From: Natronorubrum thiooxidans | GTDB lineage: Archaea; Halobacteriota; Halobacteria; Halobacteriales; Natrialbaceae | DNA length: 64,000 nt | Assembly: GCF_900156475.1 (NCBI RefSeq) | Contig: NZ_FTNR01000002.1 | Location: 186,001 to 250,000 of the forward strand | Reading direction: 5' to 3' | Shown here: positions 40,974 to 64,000 of the stretch, piece after piece | Layout of the letters: each line of letters opens with the position of its first letter | How positions within the stretch are numbered: the first letter of the stretch is position 1 | Made by a program: the position numbers and the translations under genes | Notes under the pieces: generated by a model | The model's database searches: none | The model's input: the letters and a program-made list of their open reading frames with translations, nothing else | What the model was told of the DNA's origin: nothing

Positions 40974-41366
40974 CTTCTCTCCACGTTGTCTCCCACCGCC
41001 TGATACTATGGTCCCGTTAAACGCACTCTCGAGCGGCCGGAAACCCATAGCGGTGGTTCGGTTGTGGGCCGAACTGGTCGCTTCGGTCCGACCAACGGCG
41101 GCCGGTCGAGACACGAACGTGACGAGCGACTGATGGAGTGTGGCCGTGCTGTCGACAGTAACACGGACGTACGCGGCCGCTATCGGTTCGTGTCGGCAGC
41201 CGATTCAAACTGTTCACGTCACGAAAACGGTTTTAACAGCCGTATAGTGAACCACGCCAATGAGAAACTGTCTGCCAATGCAGCGAATAGTGTGTGTCAA
41301 CCGCCCGTCGTGGAGTACATAGCGCAGACAACCACCAGCGTTTAGTTTCAGTTTCAGATACCGATT
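40974..41366. other. 393-bp regulatory gap upstream of the carbamoyltransferase and repeat protein
   Basis: Divergent intergenic region. It contains CGTATAGTGAACC (41241-41253), which resembles the motif found again near 45.5 and 46.6 kb, and TTTAG (41341-41345) about 25 nt upstream of the repeat-protein ATG. Confidence 0.5.
41241..41253 (+). promoter_or_regulatory. degenerate copy of the GGTATAGTAAACC motif
   Basis: CGTATAGTGAACC differs at two bases from the 13-bp core at 46609-46621, and both are preceded by an AAC-GTTT segment and followed by AC. It lies about 115 nt upstream of the repeat-protein ATG. Confidence 0.4.
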
Positions 41367-42350
41367 ATGCGTCGTAACGCCCGACAACAGCGTTCGGAGA
41401 CACGATCAATTCAGACGAATATTCAGATAGTGCTTACTCTCAGCGGAGTAGTACTGTTAGCTGCAGGGTTGCTACTCGCCGCGAGTGGCGGGTCCGTCGG
41501 CGGCACGTTCAGTTCAGTCACAGACAGCTGGGATGGAACACAGTCGACTGATGACGAGAGCGACGGCGTGGACTCGAATCCCGACCAGTCTACTGCCGAC
41601 GACGGTGACGGAGACACCGAGACGTCCGACAGTAACAGTGGCGATGAGAGTGATGGAACCGGAAGCGATAGCGGGGACACCGGCAAGACGGACGAAAGCG
41701 ATAGCACTGACAGCGACGGGAGCGATGGCGATGACAGTGGCGCAGACAATAATGACGGCGATGACGGTGATGCGGACGGAAGTGACGACGGGAGCAACGA
41801 CAGCGAGACAGACGGTGGTGACGGCAGCGACGGGACGAACGACGACGAGACGCACACGCTGACCGCAGTCGTCGAAGACGGCGACGGCGACCCAGTCGAC
41901 GACGCCACCGTCGAAGTGGATGCCTTCGGATTCGCCGAGGACTCGACGGTCGACAACGACGGCGAAGCCGAGTTCGACCTCGAGGACGGCAACTACACGG
42001 TGACCGCGTCCGCAGACGGCACCGAGACCGAGGAAGATGTCGAAATCGACGGCGACGACGACACGGTCACGCTGACTATCGAACAAGACGATACCGACGA
42101 CGGGATGCACACGCTGACCGCAGTCGTCGAAGACGAGGATGGCGACCCGATCGAGAACGCCACTGTCGAAGTCGAAAAGCCCTGGTTCGACTCTTCGACG
42201 AAGTCCACCGACGACGGCGGCGAAGCCGAGTTCGATCTTGAGGACGACACCTACAACGTGATCGCGTCCGCAGACGGCACCGAGACCGAGGAAGATGTCG
42301 AGATCGACGGTGACGACAACACGGTCACCCTAACCCTCGTGGAGGACTGA
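41367..42350 (+). CDS. membrane-anchored protein with two carboxypeptidase-regulatory-like repeats
   Basis: 327 residues. One N-terminal hydrophobic helix at about 22-42, then an acidic Asp/Ser/Gly linker of about 120 residues, then two beta-sandwich repeats at about 162-245 and 248-327, each starting HTLTAVVED and carrying ADGTETEEDVEIDGDD. They look like Ig-like CarboxypepD_reg domains, as in surface adhesins. The repeat units are 258 bp (86 codons) apart and share near-identical DNA (for example near 42006 and 42264), so the second arose by a recent duplication. Probably displayed on the cell surface. Partner unknown. Confidence 0.85.
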   Translation: MRRNARQQRSETRSIQTNIQIVLTLSGVVLLAAGLLLAASGGSVGGTFSSVTDSWDGTQSTDDESDGVDSNPDQSTADDGDGDTETSDSNSGDESDGTGSDSGDTGKTDESDSTDSDGSDGDDSGADNNDGDDGDADGSDDGSNDSETDGGDGSDGTNDDETHTLTAVVEDGDGDPVDDATVEVDAFGFAEDSTVDNDGEAEFDLEDGNYTVTASADGTETEEDVEIDGDDDTVTLTIEQDDTDDGMHTLTAVVEDEDGDPIENATVEVEKPWFDSSTKSTDDGGEAEFDLEDDTYNVIASADGTETEEDVEIDGDDNTVTLTLVED

Positions 42351-42451
42351 TCGACGCTGGCGGTTCCAGTTTTCGCGGTGACGACCCTCGAGACTCGAGT
42401 GACGCGTTTCTCCTCGAGTACAGTACCCTCTCTCGAGTCCGGATCGAGTCC

Positions 42452-42844
42452 CTACGAAACGGCTCGACGGCCCTGCTGTACGACGCTTCGGACGAACAGT
42501 AGACTGGCAAGGGCGACACCGCTGAGTAGCGTAAAAAACCCGCCCCAGAAGACGCCGCCTGCGGACGACGCATACAGCGCATAGAGACTCATCGCTGCGA
42601 GCCACAGCGTCACCGAGCCGACGACGCCGACGACGATTGAACTGACGGCAAGCCCTTCATGGAGTGGCTCGAGGAGCGCGACGAGACCGAGTACTCCGGG
42701 GACGACCAGTTCCGGGTTAACTGGGACCGGTCCGACAGTCAGCCACGTCGGATACGGCCGTGGTAACTCAAGGACGGTCACGACGGCGATCAGAATGACG
42801 AGCGCAGCGAGGAGCTGTTGACTAACACGAAATCGAGTGGACAT
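42452..42844 (-). CDS. small membrane protein, four predicted TM segments
   Basis: 130 residues from ATG 42844 (an alternative in-frame ATG is at 42862). Hydrophobic segments at about 10-28, 40-60, 67-85 and 95-118; ends with a basic QQGRRAVS. No recognisable family. TATA-like GTTATG about 35 nt upstream favours the ATG at 42844. Confidence 0.7.
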   Translation of the reverse strand: MSTRFRVSQQLLAALVILIAVVTVLELPRPYPTWLTVGPVPVNPELVVPGVLGLVALLEPLHEGLAVSSIVVGVVGSVTLWLAAMSLYALYASSAGGVFWGGFFTLLSGVALASLLFVRSVVQQGRRAVS

Positions 42845-43092
42845 CCAGTTCGAACTGAACATTCGCCCGTACTGTCATAACTGTTCGTTCGATAGCAACA
42901 GCCCGTGGAGTCGGTTCTCCGTCACAGAGCCAGAACGGGACGTGATCGGCAGTCGACGGCAACGGTCCGAGGCCCGTGATAGTCGCTCTGTGTGCGCGGC
43001 GGCCGGTGTTGGACGATGGACGCTGCGACGGCTCGAGGCCCGTAGAGCGCACGACGGGGCACTGGGCTCGCTGGTGGAACCGGAACCGAAAC

Positions 43093-43242
43093 CTACAGCG
43101 GAATGGTTGCGATTTCGTCCGACCCACAGAGCGGGCAGGTGGTATCGTCGGCCGTGAGCGTCTTCCCACAGCGTCGACACTCGTAGTGAACGGGTGCGTG
43201 GCGAACTCCTTCGGTGTGCTGTTTGATCCAGTCTACGATCAT
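43093..43242 (-). CDS. 49-residue zinc-ribbon protein
   Basis: Read from ATG at 43242 to TAG at 43093-43095. The sequence carries ECRRCGK and TCPLCGS, two CxxC knuckles 14 residues apart, a complete zinc-ribbon. The first 19 residues are an amphipathic stretch (IVDWIKQHTEG). Such small ribbon proteins occur in many haloarchaeal genomes as unassigned regulators. It is downstream of and separate from glmS. Confidence 0.8.
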   Translation of the reverse strand: MIVDWIKQHTEGVRHAPVHYECRRCGKTLTADDTTCPLCGSDEIATIPL

Positions 43243-43270
43243 ATGGATTCTATGACTGTCGTCGGTCAGT

Positions 43271-43392
43271 GAATCACGTTCACCCTTGTGGCAAATACTT
43301 TGTGTATATTTGTAGTATTATACATTCTAGAACTAGACATATATCCAAAATAAAGACATTTACAGTGATGTATATGTGTAAATGAATGTCTG
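43271..43392. other. AT-rich island between zinc-ribbon gene and glmS
   Basis: A stretch of about 120 bp that is mostly A and T, unlike the GC-rich surroundings. Includes several TATA-like strings and the inverted repeat described under the terminator entry. Confidence 0.6.
43345..43391 (-). terminator. probable glmS terminator (hairpin plus T-rich run)
   Basis: On the minus strand downstream of glmS an imperfect inverted repeat (arms AGACATTTAC at 43354-43363 and GTAAATGAATGTCT at 43378-43391, with a 4-base bulge) is followed by a T-rich run. This fits a factor-independent-like archaeal terminator. The repeat also has the smaller ACATATA/TATATGT pair nearby. Confidence 0.4.
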
Positions 43393-43474
43393 CCGCCGAA
43401 ACACAGTTCCGATTCGACCTCACTCGAGACGCCGAACGATCCGTCAAAAAGTCGCTACGAACGGGTCGAGCCGA

Positions 43475-45283
43475 TCATTCGACCGTCACGCTTTTCGCAA
43501 GGTTGCGGGGCTTGTCGATCGGTCGACCGAGCAGGTTCGCGGCGTGGTAAGAGAGCAACTGGAGTTGGACGTTCGCGAGCAGTCCCGCCCAGACGGGGTG
43601 GGTCTCGGGAACTGATAGCTGCGCATCGGCGACGTCAGCGAGGGGATTGTCGTCCGGGCCGACGGCAACGATCGGTGCGCCACGGGAGTTGGCCTCGATC
43701 GCGTTCGTCTTCGTCTTCTCGTCGCCGCTGCCGGTCAACACTGCAATCACCGGTGTCTCATCGGTCACGAGCGCGAGTGGCCCGTGTTTGAGTTCGCCCG
43801 AGGCGAACCCTTCAGCGTGCTCGTAGGTGATCTCCTTGAATTTCAATGCCCCCTCGAGTGCGACCGAGTGGCCGAGTCTGCTGCCGATGAAGAAGTACGA
43901 CGTGCTGTCTAAGGTCTCCTGGGCGAGCATTTCGGCCTGTGAGTTCTCCAGAACGGTCTCGACGTGTGCCGGAAGGTCCGCGAGGGACTCGAGCATCGCC
44001 TCGCGGTCGTCGGCAGGTGTCGCATCCGGTACGTCTGCTGCAATATGCTGGGTGAGCAACGCGAGCGTGACCGCTTGCGAGGAGTAGGTCTTCGTCGCCG
44101 CGACGCCGACTTCCGGGCCGGCACGGATGTAGATCGCATCGTCGGCTTCGCGTGCGGCCGTCGAGCCGACGACGTTCGTGACGGCAAGCGATCGCGCACC
44201 GCGACCGGTCGCCGTTCGGACCGCATCGAGCGTGTCGGCCGTCTCCCCGCTCTGGGTGACAGCGACGACGAGTGTGTGCTCGTCGACCGGTCCCGACGTC
44301 GATTCGTACTCGCTGGCACGGAGGACTTCCGTGGGGATTCCTGCGGCTCGCAACAGCTGGCCGCCGTACATCGCGGCGTGATAGGAGGTTCCACAGGCGA
44401 CGAACTGGACAGTGTCGACGTCAGTAAACGAGTCAGCCGGGAGATCCTCGAAGGCGACGTCACCGTCTTCGATCCGGCCCTCGATCGTGTTCGAGAGCGC
44501 GGTCGGCTGGGAGTGGATCTCCTTTTTCATGTAGTGGTCGTACTCGCCTTTCCCCGCGTCTTCGGGGTCCCAGTCGACGGTATCGACCGCGCGGTCGATC
44601 GGGGTTCCCTCGAGGTCGGTAATCCGGTAGGAGTCGGGCTCGAGCACGACGAGGTCGCCATCCTCGAGGTAAATGACCTCGTCGGTGTGATCCAGAAACG
44701 CCGGGACGTCGCTGGCGAGGAACCACTCCTCGTCGTCCAGCCCGAGCACGAGCGGCGACCCTTTCCGGGCGGCGTACACCGCCTCCTCGCCGTCGACGAT
44801 CGCGGCGATCGCGTAACTGCCCTCGAGCGTGTCGACGGCCTGTCGGACCGCCAGTTCGGTGTCGCCGGTTTCGTCTCGATACTTGTCGATGAGATGCGGG
44901 ATGACCTCCGTGTCGGTATCGCTTTCGAACTCGTGGCCCTTCGCTTTGAGCTCCGTTCTGAGTTCGTCGTAGTTGTCGATGACGCCGTTGTGGACGACGG
45001 CGACGTCACCGACGGTGTCCGTGTGCGGGTGGGCGTTTGCGTCGGTCGGCGGCCCGTGGGTGCTCCAGCGGGTGTGGCCAATACCCATGTTCCCGTTCGG
45101 ACGGCCGCTCAGCGTCGATTTGAGCTCCGATACCTCGCCCGAACACTTGTGGACCTTGACACCGGAGCCGTTCTGGACGGCGATCCCTGCCGAGTCGTAG
45201 CCGCGGTACTCGAGATTCTCGAGGCCAGACAGCAGCGTCTCTGCTGCGTCGCCGTGGCCGATCCGCGCGATAATACCACACAT
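43475..45283 (-). CDS. glmS: GlmS, glutamine-fructose-6-phosphate aminotransferase
   Basis: 602 residues. Residue 2 is the catalytic Cys of the N-terminal glutaminase (MCGIIARIG), which fixes the start at 45283 over an upstream frame. TRWSTHGPP and GDVAVVHNGVIDNYDEL follow in that domain. Two SIS domains form the isomerase part, with FVACGTSYHAAMYG and VAVTQSGETADT in the first, FIGSRLGHSVALEG in the second, and the C-terminal KPRNLAKSVTVE. It makes glucosamine-6-phosphate for UDP-GlcNAc, the precursor for glycan genes further right. A short ORF upstream ends on the shared base of its ATG. Confidence 0.97.
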   Translation of the reverse strand: MCGIIARIGHGDAAETLLSGLENLEYRGYDSAGIAVQNGSGVKVHKCSGEVSELKSTLSGRPNGNMGIGHTRWSTHGPPTDANAHPHTDTVGDVAVVHNGVIDNYDELRTELKAKGHEFESDTDTEVIPHLIDKYRDETGDTELAVRQAVDTLEGSYAIAAIVDGEEAVYAARKGSPLVLGLDDEEWFLASDVPAFLDHTDEVIYLEDGDLVVLEPDSYRITDLEGTPIDRAVDTVDWDPEDAGKGEYDHYMKKEIHSQPTALSNTIEGRIEDGDVAFEDLPADSFTDVDTVQFVACGTSYHAAMYGGQLLRAAGIPTEVLRASEYESTSGPVDEHTLVVAVTQSGETADTLDAVRTATGRGARSLAVTNVVGSTAAREADDAIYIRAGPEVGVAATKTYSSQAVTLALLTQHIAADVPDATPADDREAMLESLADLPAHVETVLENSQAEMLAQETLDSTSYFFIGSRLGHSVALEGALKFKEITYEHAEGFASGELKHGPLALVTDETPVIAVLTGSGDEKTKTNAIEANSRGAPIVAVGPDDNPLADVADAQLSVPETHPVWAGLLANVQLQLLSYHAANLLGRPIDKPRNLAKSVTVE

Positions 45284-45429
45284 TAGCCGATCACCGCCGT
45301 TCGAGGGGCAGTTTTCGACCACGTCAGACGACCGGGCAGACGCGCTGCAACGGGACGACCCGCGTTCGCGACGGTCGTATCCAGTCGATTCGGGACGGCT
45401 GCCTGAGATGCAGTACGTGTGTATGTCAT
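45283..45429 (-). CDS. possible 48-residue upstream ORF coupled to glmS
   Basis: ATG at 45429; 48 residues, basic and Thr/Ala/Arg-rich (ends RTAVIG). Its TAA shares one base with the glmS ATG (TAATG), so coupled translation is possible. A weak GATAC box lies about 28 nt upstream. Lacks homology, so it could be a regulatory leader or chance. Confidence 0.25.
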   Translation of the reverse strand: MTYTRTASQAAVPNRLDTTVANAGRPVAARLPGRLTWSKTAPRTAVIG

Positions 45430-45501
45430 TGTTGTCACCGACCCGTGGTCGCCGAGTATCGGACGCCGGGTCTCTACTCGCCCCAACTCACAGACGAGCC
45501 A

Positions 45502-45519
45502 TTACTATACCACGAATAA
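45502..45519 (-). promoter_or_regulatory. conserved 18-bp motif, left copy
   Basis: On the minus strand it reads TTATTCGTGGTATAGTAA, 17 of 18 bases identical to the copy at 46601-46618 on the opposite strand. It lies 219-236 nt upstream of glmS and could be an operator or contain its promoter TATA element. Confidence 0.55.
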
Positions 45520-45682
45520 GACAGTCGCCATCGATTGTGGAACGCTGAATTCGGTTGCAGATCTGCAATCGGCATGAACAACGGAAACGGTTTCAGGCCG
45601 ATCAGACAGCAGTCGTGTGAATTGCCCTCTCTCACCACGAACAACTGTCGGCCACGAAACACGGCTGTCAGAAATGGAGTTG
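45520..45682. other. gap upstream of the conserved motif and downstream of the HTH regulator gene
   Basis: No gene seen. Small open frames on both strands lack support. Confidence 0.35.
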
Positions 45683-46456
45683 TCAGTGGTGTGAATGGTG
45701 TGAACCGACTCCCGGGTTCTCAACCTCGTCCGACTGTGTCGCCTCGGTTGAGCGCTCGGAAAGGCGAATGACGTTCTCTCGGCCGGCCGAAATCTTCTCG
45801 ATCATCTCGTCGTCGTGCATCTGCGAGCAGATCCGGCTGACTTTCGACTTCGACCAGCCGGTCTCTTCAGCGATCCGATGCTGGCGAATGCGGCCCTGAT
45901 TCGCAACGAGCAGCCGAACAACCAGTCCCTCGTCGCTCAAGAGTTCCGGCGGTGTTTCCGGGGAGAAATACTGTGCATACGAGTCCGTCTTGGTGGGTGA
46001 GCTGTCGGTCGGTTTCGACTCAATCGTGCCATCATCGACGTCTGCCGGCTCGTCTGCCGCTGGTGATTCGGCCGTTCGTGTCGACACCGGGAGGAGTGTG
46101 GCAACCTCGAGGGTGCGTTTCGACATCGTTTCGGCGAGACGGACGCCGACAAGCCCGCCGATCAGTAGGAAGAGAACGACGATCAGGGCCGCTTCCCAGA
46201 CCGAGACGTTACGAAGGACCGACAGCCAAGACACCAGTCCAGCTGGCCAATTGCCAGTCCTGAGAAGCGCCGATGCGACCGTCTGTCCGTTGAGTTGGTG
46301 AACCAAAGCCGGCCCTCCGTCGGTCGAGATCGACCGCAGCGCGGTTCCGGCTCCGATCTGGAAAGTAGACACCATGGATGTCGCGGTTCTAACACGGTCG
46401 GCCTGTGGGGGACCCACGATACTCGTGATCCCGCCGACCGCACTCGAGATGTGCAC
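45683..46456 (-). CDS. membrane-anchored HTH regulator
   Basis: 257 residues from a GTG at 46456. The region 1-85 contains a Thr/Gly-rich extracytoplasmic-looking part, then one membrane helix at about 90-108. The cytoplasmic part is acidic, then a winged-HTH-like unit (LLVANQGRIRQHRIAEETGWSKS and KVSRICSQMHDDEMIEKIS) at about 180-225, ending in an unusual His-rich tail (SHHSHH). Such inverted-topology HTH proteins (DUF7343-type) are common in haloarchaea. The GTG is supported by a TATA box exactly 27 nt upstream. It sits between inverted copies of the 18-bp motif, so it could regulate glmS and the dehydrogenase operon. Confidence 0.8.
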   Translation of the reverse strand: MHISSAVGGITSIVGPPQADRVRTATSMVSTFQIGAGTALRSISTDGGPALVHQLNGQTVASALLRTGNWPAGLVSWLSVLRNVSVWEAALIVVLFLLIGGLVGVRLAETMSKRTLEVATLLPVSTRTAESPAADEPADVDDGTIESKPTDSSPTKTDSYAQYFSPETPPELLSDEGLVVRLLVANQGRIRQHRIAEETGWSKSKVSRICSQMHDDEMIEKISAGRENVIRLSERSTEATQSDEVENPGVGSHHSHH

Positions 46457-46480
46457 TGTGGGGTTTTCATTATGGATCCG

Positions 46481-46486
46481 TATAAC
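46481..46486 (-). promoter_or_regulatory. TATA box of the HTH regulator gene
   Basis: GTTATA on the minus strand, centred 27 nt before the GTG start; decides that start. A palindrome-like GGTTTAATAACGATTTAAAC lies just upstream (46489-46508). Confidence 0.55.
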
Positions 46487-46600
46487 CCGGTTTAATAACG
46501 ATTTAAACGCTCACGCTCTCGATTCGGGCAATCCATCGCTGAGACGTCCGGAGCCCTCACAGCACGCTGGTTTGCTGGCAGATGCTCCTGCTACAACCGT

Positions 46601-46618
46601 TTATTCGAGGTATAGTAA
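46601..46618 (+). promoter_or_regulatory. conserved 18-bp motif, right copy
   Basis: TTATTCGAGGTATAGTAA, in opposite orientation to the copy at 45502-45519. It extends into GGTATAGTAAACC (46609-46621), an imperfect palindrome. It lies about 115-132 nt upstream of the dehydrogenase ATG, which has no TATA box at the usual distance. Confidence 0.55.
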
Positions 46619-46732
46619 ACCACCGATGGCGAGTGGGCTGTCCTGAGGAATGCCGTCGGTTGCAAAACGCGTACTGACCCGGAATCACCGTCGCACTCGG
46701 CTGTGTGACGGCCCAGCGACACCGCATCATCC

Positions 46733-48133
46733 ATGACCACAACAATCAGCGACACGGAGACGCGAGGGGGCGAACGAGAGTACGATCGGTACCCACTGCA
46801 GACGGGTGAGGAGGGGACGACTCTCCAGCATATCGACGAACAGTCCATCCGCGAGGCGACGATCTGTGTCGTCGGACTCGGCTACGTCGGGCTCCCGCTT
46901 GCAGTCGGGTTCGCACAGTCGAACTACCGCGTCGTCGGATACGATATCGACGAATCGACGGTCGAAACGCTGCAATCAGGCGTCGACACGACCGGCGATC
47001 TCACCGACGAAGCCGTTCAGGACGGGGATATATCCTACACGACCGACGCGAGTCAGATCAGCGAGGCGGATTACATCATCATCACCGTCCCGACGCCGAT
47101 CGATGACGACAACCGTCCCGACCTGAGCTACGTCGAAAGTGCGGCGACGACCGTCGGCTCGAAGATGAACCCCGGAAGCACGGTCATTCTCGAGTCGACT
47201 GTCTACCCTGGCTCGACGCGCGACGTGCTCGTTCCGGCACTCGAGGCCGCTTCCGACCTCTCTGCGGGGGAGGACTTCTTCGTCGGCTACTCGCCCGAAC
47301 GCGCGACGCCCGGTGACGAGAAACACGGCCTCGCAGACGTCGTCAAGGTCGTCAGCGCACAGAACGAGAAAGTGCTCGACGACGTGGCGACCCTCTACGA
47401 GTCGATCATCGACGCGGGCGTCCACCGTGCCCCGTCGATCGAGGTCGCCGAGGCCAGCAAGGTCGTCGAAAACACCCAGCGCGACCTCAACATCGCGTTC
47501 GTCAACGAACTCTCGATGGCCCTCGAGCGCTTAGACGTCGACGGGCAGGCGGTCCTCGAGGCCGCGGGCACGAAGTGGAACTTCCACGACTACCGACCGG
47601 GACTGGTCGGCGGCCACTGCATCCCCGTCGATCCGTACTTCTTTACCTACCGGTCGTCCCAGGAAGGGTTCGAACCCGAACTCATGCAGACCAGTCGAAA
47701 GGTAAACGAGTCGGTGCCCGGCCACGTCGCCGAACTGACGATCAAGGCGCTCAACGAGTGTCACAAGACGCTCCGGGAGAGTCGAGTGCTGGTACTCGGG
47801 CTCTCGTACAAACCGGGGGTCGGGGACATTCGAAGCTCGAAGGTCGAAGCGGTCATCGACACCCTCCAGGAGTACGCGATCGATATCGAGGGGTTCGATC
47901 CGTTCGTGGACGACGAGACGATCGAGGATCAGTTCGGGATCGAAGCCCAGGACCGACTCTCGTTCGAGGGGTTCGATGCCGTCATGCTCGCGACGCCACA
48001 CAAGGAGTTCGAAGAGCTGGACCTCGAGGCCGTGTCGACCGAACTCGCGGACGATCCCGCCCTGATCGACGTGACGGGGACACTCGAGGAAGCCGAAGCC
48101 ACCGAGGCAGGGTTCGTCTACCGACGGTTATGA
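46733..48133 (+). CDS. wecC: UDP-N-acetyl-D-mannosamine dehydrogenase-type nucleotide-sugar dehydrogenase
   Basis: 466 residues. N-terminal NAD-binding GLGYVGLPLA with Gly48, Gly50, Gly53; VPTPIDDDNRPDLSYV; the conserved Lys in ASKVVENTQRDLNIAFVNE (about 242-260); and the catalytic Cys296 in GGHCIPVDPYF. It oxidises a UDP-HexNAc (most like UDP-ManNAc to the uronate) in two steps with two NAD+. The N-terminal 40 residues are an extra acidic extension. No epimerase (wecB) gene is visible in the window; the DUF354 gene two ORFs downstream has a related fold. First gene of the operon running to 52244. Confidence 0.93.
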   Translation: MTTTISDTETRGGEREYDRYPLQTGEEGTTLQHIDEQSIREATICVVGLGYVGLPLAVGFAQSNYRVVGYDIDESTVETLQSGVDTTGDLTDEAVQDGDISYTTDASQISEADYIIITVPTPIDDDNRPDLSYVESAATTVGSKMNPGSTVILESTVYPGSTRDVLVPALEAASDLSAGEDFFVGYSPERATPGDEKHGLADVVKVVSAQNEKVLDDVATLYESIIDAGVHRAPSIEVAEASKVVENTQRDLNIAFVNELSMALERLDVDGQAVLEAAGTKWNFHDYRPGLVGGHCIPVDPYFFTYRSSQEGFEPELMQTSRKVNESVPGHVAELTIKALNECHKTLRESRVLVLGLSYKPGVGDIRSSKVEAVIDTLQEYAIDIEGFDPFVDDETIEDQFGIEAQDRLSFEGFDAVMLATPHKEFEELDLEAVSTELADDPALIDVTGTLEEAEATEAGFVYRRL

Positions 48134-52679: not shown

Positions 52680-53669
52680 CTACTCGACTTCGATCGGGAG
52701 GTGAACCGTCCGGTATGCGTTCTCGGGTGTGGGTTCTGACGACGGCTCGCCGTCGTAGAGCAACAGCGTGAGCCGGAACTCCTCGCCGGCCATCGACGGC
52801 GTGACCTCGAGCGTCTGCTGGTGTGTGTCGCCGTCAGCGACGGTCGCTGACGCTCTGTCTACCTCTTCGGCCTCGCGGACGGTCACCTCGTCAGCATCGT
52901 AGCTCACCCGCTCGAGCAGTACGACGGTCGTGTAGGTGCGTTCCTCGTGTTCCTGATTGGTGATCGTGGCCTGCAACTCCTGGGGCTCCCCGGCGGTGTA
53001 CGTCGACTCGTACATGGTCTCAGTCTCGCCGGTAACGGTCTCCGTTGCCACCGAAAACTCGGTGAACCCGTCATGTTGTGGTGGGTTGGCGATCGCAAAG
53101 CCACCGCTTGCGACCAACAGAACCAGTCCGATCACGATCGCGACGTTATACGGTCGGGTGGTCGTTCGCTCGTACGCAGTGGGCCGTCGCTGGGTAAAAA
53201 ACAGTGTGTCCGCGGAGAGCGACGGAACGAACCGTTGGTCCGGCGGACACCGATAGCGAGCGCCGATCGCAGACAGTCCGAGGCCGACAGTGAGTACGGC
53301 GACTCCGGAGAGTGCTGTTTCGAGGGTCAAACCCCCAGGGGTTACGGACGTAAGAAGGGTGATCGTCGAGACGAGTGCAACACTAACGACGACTGAGAGG
53401 ACTAGCCGTTCGATCGCCTCGAGTCCGCCGGAGACCAGCAGTGGGTTTCCGAGTCCGGTTTTCTCTTCGTCGAACGGCTGGGTGTCGTCGTTTGGCTTAT
53501 CCGGAAACATGGCCGAGACGAGCGCATACCCGGGAAGAAAGACAACGAGCGGAATCGTCAGCAGGATCCGTGCAGTGCCACCAACACCGGAGAAAACGCC
53601 GAATGTAAGGGCCCCAGTGATCACGATGACGGCTGTGAGATCGGAAAACCACCAGTGAGTGTCGCTCAT
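52680..53669 (-). CDS. DUF1616 family membrane protein
   Basis: 329 residues. Two pairs of membrane segments in the first half (about 12-60 and 85-135), a fifth at about 170-190, then an extracytoplasmic beta-sandwich-like domain (FTEFSVATETVTG..., EEFRLTLLLYDGEPSSEPTPENAY). The N-terminal GGTARILLTIPLVVFLPGYALVSAMFP segment (in part) is the DUF1616 mark. This family often sits next to S-layer glycosylation genes. It has a GATAATAAACC box about 34 nt upstream of the ATG. Confidence 0.9.
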   Translation of the reverse strand: MSDTHWWFSDLTAVIVITGALTFGVFSGVGGTARILLTIPLVVFLPGYALVSAMFPDKPNDDTQPFDEEKTGLGNPLLVSGGLEAIERLVLSVVVSVALVSTITLLTSVTPGGLTLETALSGVAVLTVGLGLSAIGARYRCPPDQRFVPSLSADTLFFTQRRPTAYERTTTRPYNVAIVIGLVLLVASGGFAIANPPQHDGFTEFSVATETVTGETETMYESTYTAGEPQELQATITNQEHEERTYTTVVLLERVSYDADEVTVREAEEVDRASATVADGDTHQQTLEVTPSMAGEEFRLTLLLYDGEPSSEPTPENAYRTVHLPIEVE

Positions 53670-54058
53670 TGCGTCGACAATCGGGGTGGTGATGGTTTAT
53701 TATCACCCAGGTAAGCCCCAATCGAACGGGTCGGTATGACGACTGTCTGACGGAGATGTATAACAATCTCGACACTGCGTCTACGTAATACCTTGTTGGT
53801 GGTTCTGAACGCTTCCATAAACTGAAACAATCACATAAACGAAGTGGTCTCCAAAATATATATTCAAGAATTCCTGACGTAATAAAGGTCTGATGAGTTT
53901 CAGAGATTCTGTTTAGAGCGGCTGAGACGCGATATTTTGGCTGTTTTAAAAACACCTGAAGAGTAATATCGTCTTATGAAAACAACGAAACGGTATCTTT
54001 CACGAAGATATGGATCCAATCCTTTATTACCCACTTCTGATTATGGAAGACTGGTGCG
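53670..54058. other. 389-bp AT-richer intergenic region
   Basis: Divergent region between DUF1616 and the first DUF7344 gene, noticeably AT-rich. Holds GGTTTATTATCACC (53694-53707), which is the DUF1616 promoter box and partly resembles the conserved motif, and CTTTATTACC (about 54020) upstream of the regulator. No ORF seen. Confidence 0.45.
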
Positions 54059-62524: not shown

Positions 62525-64000
62525 TCAGTAAATACTGCCGTCGAGGACGCCAAGCACGAGTCCCGAGACGAGCAAGGAGAGGCCAGCGACGAACAGGACG
62601 CGCTGTCCCCAGTTTCGTGTCGCTTTGCCGCCAAACCGTTTCTCGAGCCACCCGTGGATCGACTCCGCCCTTGAGCCAATCGGATCGGGAAACGCCGCGA
62701 GGACCTCGAACGGCTCCGTCGGGTCCAGCGCACCGACAAGCAGCGCGAAGGTGAGGAAGATCACGAAACCGATCGGTGGGACGATGGTGAGTGCGAGCCA
62801 CGGACCCGAAAGTGCCGTCGAGAGGGCGACGATAGGGACGGCTGCGAGAACGGTCGTCAGTATCACGCGCCCGAACCGGGCGTCAGCAAGCGGATCGAAG
62901 CCGACGAGTCGCGCGCTCCAGCAGTGGAAGGCGAACATCGTGGCGTAGCCGATGCTCGTCGCGATGGCCGCCCCATGCATCCCGTAGCGTGGGATCAAGA
63001 CGGCGTTGAGCACGACATTGATCGCGGCCGCAGCGCCGGTCGCCGCGATCGGATAGCGGAGCGTTCCGTTCCCCTGTGACACGGCGAGAATCGGCCGGGC
63101 GAGTGCGAACCCAAGTGCGCCGGGGAGCAACAACAGTAGGGGCGTAATCGCCGGTTCGGCCTCGGCACCGAAGTAGATCGGGACGACGACGTCTGCGAGC
63201 GAAGCGAGACCGACCGCCATGACGGCCGTCAGCAGAAACGTGTACCGTGTCGTTCGGGATGCGAGTGCCGTGATCTTTCGATGCCGGTTGTTCGACCACA
63301 GCTCCGACGTCGAGTGAACGTACACGGTCTGGAGGGCAAGCGGGACAAACCAGAGGAATTCGGCGAGTGTGAGTGCCGCCCGGTAGTTACCCACGTCCGA
63401 ACTTGCGGCGAACCGCTGGAGCATCACGATGTCGATGTGATAGAGCGACATCAGCAGGAATACGAGAACGATGCTCATCGAGTTGAACGTCAGCAGCTCC
63501 GTTCGCGGAAATCGCATCGTCGGCTGACTGAACACACACGACAGCGAGATTCGACGGTGGACGAAAACGAGCCCGACAACGGCGACGATTGCGCTCGCGA
63601 ACAGGTGGCCGGCAAGGGCACCCATCACCCCGTAGCCGGCGTAGACGAGCGGAATCGCGACCACGACGAACCCGACCTTGTCGAGGACCTTCAGCGGCTC
63701 CGAGTATCGCTCGAGGCCAAATCCCATGAGCGTCTTCCGAGCATAATCACGAAACTGCGCCGTGACGACGAGCACGGCCAGCGCGTAGAAGTAGATGGTC
63801 AACTCCTCGCCGAACGCGAGGGCAACGAGCCCGAACTGGGCGGCGACGACCAGCAACAACGCCCCAGTGACGGCGAGAATGACTGCCAGCCGGAAATAAA
63901 AGCCGACGACGTGTTCGCTCCAGTTCGCCGCGGTGCGGTCCTCGGCGAGGAACTTTCGGACGCCATCGGTGATACCGGAGCTAACGAAGATCATGTAGAT
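62525..64000 (-). CDS. Wzx-like polysaccharide flippase (N-terminus off the window)
   Basis: Partial: 491 codons from position 64000 inwards, with the reading frame open at the edge. About 12 membrane segments are visible. The first visible part is SSGITDGVRKFLAE, an interior loop of MATE/MOP-type flippases, so around 50-80 residues are missing. PMRFPRTELLTFNSMSIV and GNGTLRYPIAATGAAAAINVVLN are typical of Wzx/RfbX proteins. The soluble region (about 435-465) and a further TM helix end it. It would flip lipid-linked oligosaccharide across the membrane. Confidence 0.9.
   Translation of the reverse strand: MYMIFVSSGITDGVRKFLAEDRTAANWSEHVVGFYFRLAVILAVTGALLLVVAAQFGLVALAFGEELTIYFYALAVLVVTAQFRDYARKTLMGFGLERYSEPLKVLDKVGFVVVAIPLVYAGYGVMGALAGHLFASAIVAVVGLVFVHRRISLSCVFSQPTMRFPRTELLTFNSMSIVLVFLLMSLYHIDIVMLQRFAASSDVGNYRAALTLAEFLWFVPLALQTVYVHSTSELWSNNRHRKITALASRTTRYTFLLTAVMAVGLASLADVVVPIYFGAEAEPAITPLLLLLPGALGFALARPILAVSQGNGTLRYPIAATGAAAAINVVLNAVLIPRYGMHGAAIATSIGYATMFAFHCWSARLVGFDPLADARFGRVILTTVLAAVPIVALSTALSGPWLALTIVPPIGFVIFLTFALLVGALDPTEPFEVLAAFPDPIGSRAESIHGWLEKRFGGKATRNWGQRVLFVAGLSLLVSGLVLGVLDGSIY

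Follow-up and report, generated by a model that had tools for sequence, protein, structure and literature searches.

A conserved promoter site ahead of cell-surface glycan genes in haloarchaea, with a neighbouring DUF7343 protein as its candidate reader

Near-identical, switch-like promoter sites lie before sugar-coat genes of salt-loving archaea and are conserved between families, and an adjoining, uncharacterised membrane-anchored regulator probably reads them. In the window, i.e., the whole 64,000-nucleotide stretch of Natronorubrum thiooxidans DNA analysed here, the first-pass annotation had reported an inverted pair of 18-bp motifs that bracket a gene for a membrane helix-turn-helix regulator and point outward from it, towards glmS and a gene called wecC. 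The coordinates of the pair proved exact and its outward orientation correct, with 17 of the 18 positions identical, so that TTATTCGTGGTATAGTAA and TTATTCGAGGTATAGTAA have a single difference. The finding is larger than was claimed there: it comprises a conserved haloarchaeal glycan-regulon promoter site together with a strong candidate regulator. Our preferred reading, to which the comparative evidence inclines us without compelling it, is that the motif is a regulatory site embedded in the promoters of a cell-surface-glycan regulon, with the neighbouring DUF7343 protein as its candidate reader. The pair and the genes around it are located as follows.

43475–45283, minus strand: glmS, glutamine--fructose-6-phosphate transaminase (above the cut-off of NCBIfam TIGR01135).
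45502–45519, minus strand: putative regulatory site in the promoter of the glmS unit, TTATTCGTGGTATAGTAA; exact match, a site being present in 34/34 family loci that include the start of glmS.
45683–46375, minus strand: predicted DUF7343 membrane-anchored winged-helix regulator (Pfam PF24034; helix and winged helix in the structure model), start at MVST.
46601–46618, plus strand: putative regulatory site in the promoter of the sugar-dehydrogenase unit, TTATTCGAGGTATAGTAA; exact match, with a site in 35/35 family loci, inside a wider dyad, GTTTAY-N10-RTAAAC.
46733–48133, plus strand: nucleotide-sugar dehydrogenase ('wecC'; above the cut-off of NCBIfam TIGR03026, the specific UDP-ManNAc model not being reached).

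The motif pair is not a product of chance. With up to three mismatches, the TTATTCGTGGTATAGTAA and TTATTCGAGGTATAGTAA copies are the only matches in the window (mean in shuffled sequence, 0.01), and the 4.21-Mb genome holds just one extra place, a poorer one with three mismatches. A genome-wide scan of this sort had been proposed in the first-pass annotation, with random placement as the outcome that would speak against a regulatory site; the placements are non-random and the pair is near-unique. The dyad around the dehydrogenase-side site was derived from column counts over 28 non-redundant loci, and the glmS-side site is the weaker of the two in symmetry. On the flanks, the identity of glmS stood, as did that of a nucleotide-sugar dehydrogenase, but the name wecC is not established because the protein reaches 246.7 against the 750 required by the archaeal UDP-ManNAc dehydrogenase model.

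Both sites, together with the block of glmS, DUF7343 regulator and sugar dehydrogenase, were present in all ten genomes of the genus, which were chosen by the regulator protein. Across 392 genomes of the order (tallied by hand), the pattern with up to two mismatches occurred in 49 of 96 genomes of the organism's own family (f1), where a reversed control gave 2 of 96, and in 21 of 296 genomes of other families against 20 of 296, i.e., at control level at that stringency. An outward-facing pair approximately 1.0–1.75 kb apart was found in 23 f1 genomes, and the block was kept in 34 of 40 fetched stretches, as far as each stretch covers it. A site lies 102–135 nt upstream of the dehydrogenase start (35/35 loci) and 170–279 nt upstream of the glmS start (34/34 loci), the window being included in both counts. 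The remaining six stretches (L093, L095, L096, L097, L099 and L103) carry single sites, three of them before flippase genes; the other three showed no convincing target, L095 running off its contig. Among glmS loci fetched by protein similarity, the block was also present in four further families (f17, f6, f5 and f4), with a related arrangement in f14. The glmS sites of these four families read TTA-N7-TATAGTAA or one-base variants of it, and TTA-N7-TATAATAA stands before the dehydrogenase or a gene set containing it, which gives the general form TTA-N7-TATARTAA. In the f5 genome (G093) the DUF7343 gene lies about 3.5 kb away on the opposite side of glmS, not between glmS and the dehydrogenase. 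Most family loci, as well as the training set of the matrix used below, were picked by the motif itself, so that conservation inside those sets is in part a product of the selection, and the search expression, which required TATAGTAA, partly imposes its invariance in the family loci; the regulator-chosen genus loci and the glmS-chosen loci are less biased.

Further sites were scored with a matrix of 34 sites, the window's own sites excluded, against a null of 1.28 Mb of first-order random sequence in which the best score was 13.4 bits. The additional sites and their putative targets in the window are these.

41233–41250, plus strand: third site, TTAACAGCCGTATAGTGA, with a CarboxypepD_reg-type gene 116 nt downstream; 19.2 bits; kept in 10/10 relatives fetched for it.
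41367–42350, plus strand: CarboxypepD_reg-type protein (Pfam PF13620), target of the third site.
52680–53669, minus strand: DUF1616 membrane protein (Pfam PF07760), target of the fourth site.
53697–53714, minus strand: fourth site, TTACCTGGGTGATAATAA, 27 nt before the DUF1616 gene; its score, 13.2 bits, borders on the null.
62525–64000, minus strand: polysaccharide flippase, truncated at the end of the window, with its site at C41:250338–250355, 338 bases beyond the window.

The degenerate third copy previously placed at 41241 is real and corresponds to TTAACAGCCGTATAGTGA. Its ten relatives mostly read TTA-N7-TATAGTGA; an eleventh stretch (L290), a locus of the other glmS type, is without the site. 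The fourth site is kept as TTA-N7-GATAATAAACC before the DUF1616 gene in 10/10 genus genomes. The flippase site scores 16.4 bits, above the best of the null, and has a counterpart in 10/10 genus genomes, in eight of which the flippase gene was verified behind it; flippase genes of two additional genera are also preceded by such sites. Another site (C41:256344; 18.1 bits) lies 25 nt before glmM (TIGR03990), with the exact pattern in just five of the ten genus genomes. An exact scan of ten genomes returned 51 matches to TTA-N7-TATARTAA, where the reversed control gave 5. Assigned to genes by coordinate and sequence, with part of the loci read, they comprise ten each at glmS, the dehydrogenase and the flippase, five at glmM, nine at a site beside a second glmS and seven others; the first four genes account for 35 of the 51. 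The extended form ACNGTY-TTA-N7-TATARTRA gave 11 mismatch-free matches in the ten genomes, by coordinate all at the glmS or the CarboxypepD_reg site. Because the conserved sites lie mostly within one glycan cluster, the local regulon that had been proposed for these genes is well supported, with conserved copies before glmS, the sugar dehydrogenase, the CarboxypepD_reg-type gene, the DUF1616 gene, the flippase gene and glmM.

Some sites were also observed elsewhere. Downstream of the second glmS, TTATGCTGTCTATAGTAA (L235, 1501–1752; C30:95511 in the organism's own genome) stands 27 nt upstream of the gene for a small, zinc-finger-like DUF7563 protein; a similar copy occurs in 9/10 genus genomes, and no DUF7343 gene was recognised within the 1.5 kb read on either side. 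A weaker site, TTAGCGAACCGATAATGA, at C41:254874–254897 on the minus strand, 4.9 kb beyond the window end, lies approximately 115 nt upstream of a phosphodiesterase-family gene and is seen again in G002 and G007. Two more places in the same genome, C22:189740 and C22:600964, showed no convincing target gene.

The right half of the site, TATARTAA (with variants such as TATAGTGA, GATAATAA and CATAGTAA), is probably a non-canonical TATA element, to judge from its position approximately 25–30 nt upstream of near-leaderless starts. The site includes this probable TATA element, so it appears to be a non-canonical core promoter to which a TTA element is added upstream, and not a free-standing operator. 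In the 30 glmM loci read, the octamer ends 25–26 nt before the ATG in 12 (L110–L120 and L124) and 31 nt before it in L121, and the octamer-to-ATG distance at DUF1616 and DUF7563 in the organism's own genome is 27 nt. Because 72% of protein-coding transcripts in Haloferax volcanii are leaderless (PMC4983044), this is where a TATA element would be expected. A second glmM paralogue, in six genomes (L131–L136), has TTTTTATATA in the corresponding region and carries TTTATATA at the TATA position, where glmM and DUF1616 have the octamer. The haloarchaeal core promoter in the cited part of that source consists of the TATA element TTWT and the BRE CGAAA, the element being approximately 26 nt upstream of the transcription start; the octamer departs from this consensus and is not preceded by CGAAA. 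A TTTAT at the left end of the dehydrogenase-side site fits TTWT as cited, but that position is occupied by TTAG or TTAA at glmM and other sites. ACNGT often lies just upstream of TTA, and ACNGT-type conservation is seen at these sites. A general alternative TATA box was rejected: TATAGTAA alone occurs 32 times in the genome against 31 for the reversed control, so that the octamer is specific to the present set of sites and is not a general promoter element.

We took the regulator gene as 45683–46375 because several orthologue matches start at the MVST methionine; a longer GTG frame extends to 46456. The protein belongs to DUF7343 (PF24034; 89.7 bits, cut-off 27.6), a family described as of unknown function that has several paralogues per genome. 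The claim of a membrane helix-turn-helix regulator between the sites was borne out by this match, by one predicted membrane helix and by a predicted winged helix; the structure model has a long helix at 47–94 and a confident winged helix at 148–205. A membrane helix and a DNA-binding domain are thus predicted in one chain, in an ArnR-like one-component layout. No TrmB family was among its Pfam matches up to E 0.001, a fold search of the PDB gave weak, mostly winged-helix matches, none at E 0.001 or better, and a sequence search of the PDB matched no chain. In orthologues from f17 and f6 (L200, L201 and L215), TSP3 repeats (PF18884) precede the membrane helix; the window's regulator has merely about 50 residues there. 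TSP3 repeats typically bind calcium, and the outer part in those families could therefore sense calcium or the surface layer.

At glmS loci, the TTA half of the site appears to track the adjacent regulator. Sixty such loci were fetched by protein, 13 with an adjacent DUF7343 gene and 47 without; a TTA-type site stands at 13/13 of the former and 3/47 of the latter (L149, L150 and L171, the last being the f5 genome whose regulator gene has moved), for which Fisher's test gives 1e-10 over loci that are related and lineages that are not independent. The 47 loci carry GTA-N7-TATAGTAA in 17 cases and neither site in 27. In a tree of the 92 glmS proteins that passed a length filter, the octamer occupies a 68-tip clade, the basal lineages of which have both regulator and TTA; one 20-tip clade has no adjacent regulator and shows GTA in 17, TTA in two and neither in one, and the remaining 24 tips are without a site. 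The link is suggestive and not decisive, because the tree reads as one main loss with few independent events. Since the 20-tip clade keeps TATAGTAA with no regulator adjacent, the right half would be held by something else, the basal machinery being the simplest candidate. In the family's other glmS clade (L147–L165), GTAGYCYRTCTATAGTAATG stands approximately 95–265 nt upstream of glmS, often with CTAC 8 nt before GTAG, i.e., a different dyad ahead of the same octamer.

The suggestion that the encoded regulator binds the site is a circumstantial one, the neighbourhood recurring in several families and TTA being mostly changed at glmS loci where no regulator is adjacent. The reader could instead be a DUF7343 paralogue or an alternative TBP/TFB pair, with the neighbouring regulator incidental; the number of paralogues per genome, the persistence of TATAGTAA at loci lacking an adjacent regulator and the site beside the second glmS all speak for this. 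We nevertheless regard another reader as doubtful, since TTA accompanies the adjacent regulator in the proportions given above, and the octamer is not used genome-wide, contrary to a class defined by basal factors.

If the neighbouring DUF7343 protein is the reader, the TTA seven bases before the octamer, often with the upstream ACNGT, would act as an added recognition element. The membrane-anchored winged helix would read the site, probably dimerising on the TTA...TAA dyad, which spans BRE and TATA, and the bound dimer would block TBP/TFB. A cell-surface signal would release the regulator, and release would co-adjust amino-sugar supply (glmS and glmM), sugar oxidation, the flipping of lipid-linked sugars and surface proteins. 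Repression has a slight edge, since the TATA element falls inside the dyad, as is described for TrmB at malE (PMC4158304); activation follows closely, in view of the poor core and the upstream ACNGT common to the sites. An explicit activator reading, in which the regulator binds ACNGT and TTA beside the BRE so as to recruit TBP/TFB where the TATA element is poor, fits the departure of the core from TTWT/CGAAA (PMC4983044) and the ACNGT-type conservation upstream of TTA. It has parallels in archaeal TrmB-type regulators, which activate from sites upstream of BRE/TATA (PMC4158304), and in ArnR, a membrane-bound activator (PMC13286277). However, the dehydrogenase dyad spans the TATA element, which a bound activator would cover, and we give this reading a minority place beside the preferred one.

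Two features lie in the leaders that follow the paired sites.

45283–45429, minus strand: 48-codon open frame, its stop overlapping the glmS ATG; kept in 39 loci, with a weak coding signal.
46688–46711, plus strand: hairpin of nine pairs in the dehydrogenase leader; 96.3% of cells paired and three pairs changed on both sides over 27 leaders, a count favoured by the omission of five divergent ones.

The existence of these long leaders, with a conserved hairpin on the dehydrogenase side and an overlapping short frame at glmS, would be compatible with the motif being the start of a structured leader RNA and not a DNA site, which we think very unlikely. The glmM and DUF1616 sites end 25–27 nt before the ATG and leave little room for a leader. 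The glmS-leader alignment (27 of 34, with five near-duplicates, L067 and L101 left out) yielded no shared consensus structure, and Rfam covariance models gave no match up to E 1 in positions 41000–47000 of the window; on these two results a common leader RNA was rejected. The dehydrogenase-leader alignment held 27 of 35 leaders, three near-duplicates having been removed and then L081, L086, L089, L094 and L102 as divergent. The stop of the 48-codon frame, the product of which often reads MTRNST...EVSG, overlaps the start codon of glmS, as TAATG or TGATG, and the frame may couple its translation to that of glmS. Its mismatches at codon positions 1, 2 and 3 number 978, 1117 and 1233, a weakly coding-like pattern, and a coding short frame before glmS was set aside despite its conservation in 39 loci.

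Another reading takes the pair as terminal inverted repeats bounding a mobile element with the regulator as its cargo, an outcome that the first-pass annotation had named as adverse and that the bracketing of one gene by inverted copies might suggest. It was rejected as next to impossible: the gene order is shared by the 34 fetched family loci and by other families, each further copy stands alone ahead of another gene, and no transposase or integrase was recognised between the sites in the window.

Among known systems, TrmB of Pyrococcus furiosus at the malE promoter is similar in being an archaeal winged-helix sugar regulator with a palindromic site at BRE/TATA, from where it represses by interfering with initiation (PMC4158304). 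Its operator, in the cited part of that source, is TACT-N3-AGTA, which neither of the paired sites carries at BRE/TATA, as against TTA-N7-TATARTAA here; the present regulator has a single predicted membrane helix, and Pfam gave no TrmB match for it. ArnR and ArnR1 of Sulfolobus are likewise membrane proteins with a helix-turn-helix that control genes for surface structures (PMC13286277), and are likened to the present protein by layout, not homology: as cited, their helix-turn-helix is N-terminal and their targets are archaellum genes, whereas here the winged helix is C-terminal and the genes are glycan genes. CsmR of Haloferax volcanii is a haloarchaeal regulator with a semi-palindromic site beside the TATA box, but that site is TATCA-N4-TGATA and its targets, in the passages cited, concern motility and cell shape (PMC13286277). 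In the openly licensed literature we found no paper naming DUF7343, and none on haloarchaeal glmS, exopolysaccharide regulators, operator/TATA overlap or the dehydrogenase cluster that describes the present site.

A more speculative proposal, which we consider improbable as it stands, is that the membrane-tethered factor, with an outer TSP3 domain in some families, serves as the dedicated selectivity factor of an ACNGT-TTA-N7-TATARTAA promoter class whose TATA element is poorly read by the basal machinery. The supply of amino sugars, export and surface proteins would thereby be tied directly to the state of the envelope, in an ancient haloarchaeal circuit of envelope homeostasis. If the preferred reading is true, it would make testable the control of promoters by a membrane-anchored archaeal factor through an altered TATA element, explain the unusual promoter common to these genes across families, provide a regulatory entry point into haloarchaeal surface-glycan synthesis, and give a predicted DNA target and regulon to a member of the DUF7343 family, which is described as of unknown function and is represented several times in each haloarchaeal genome.
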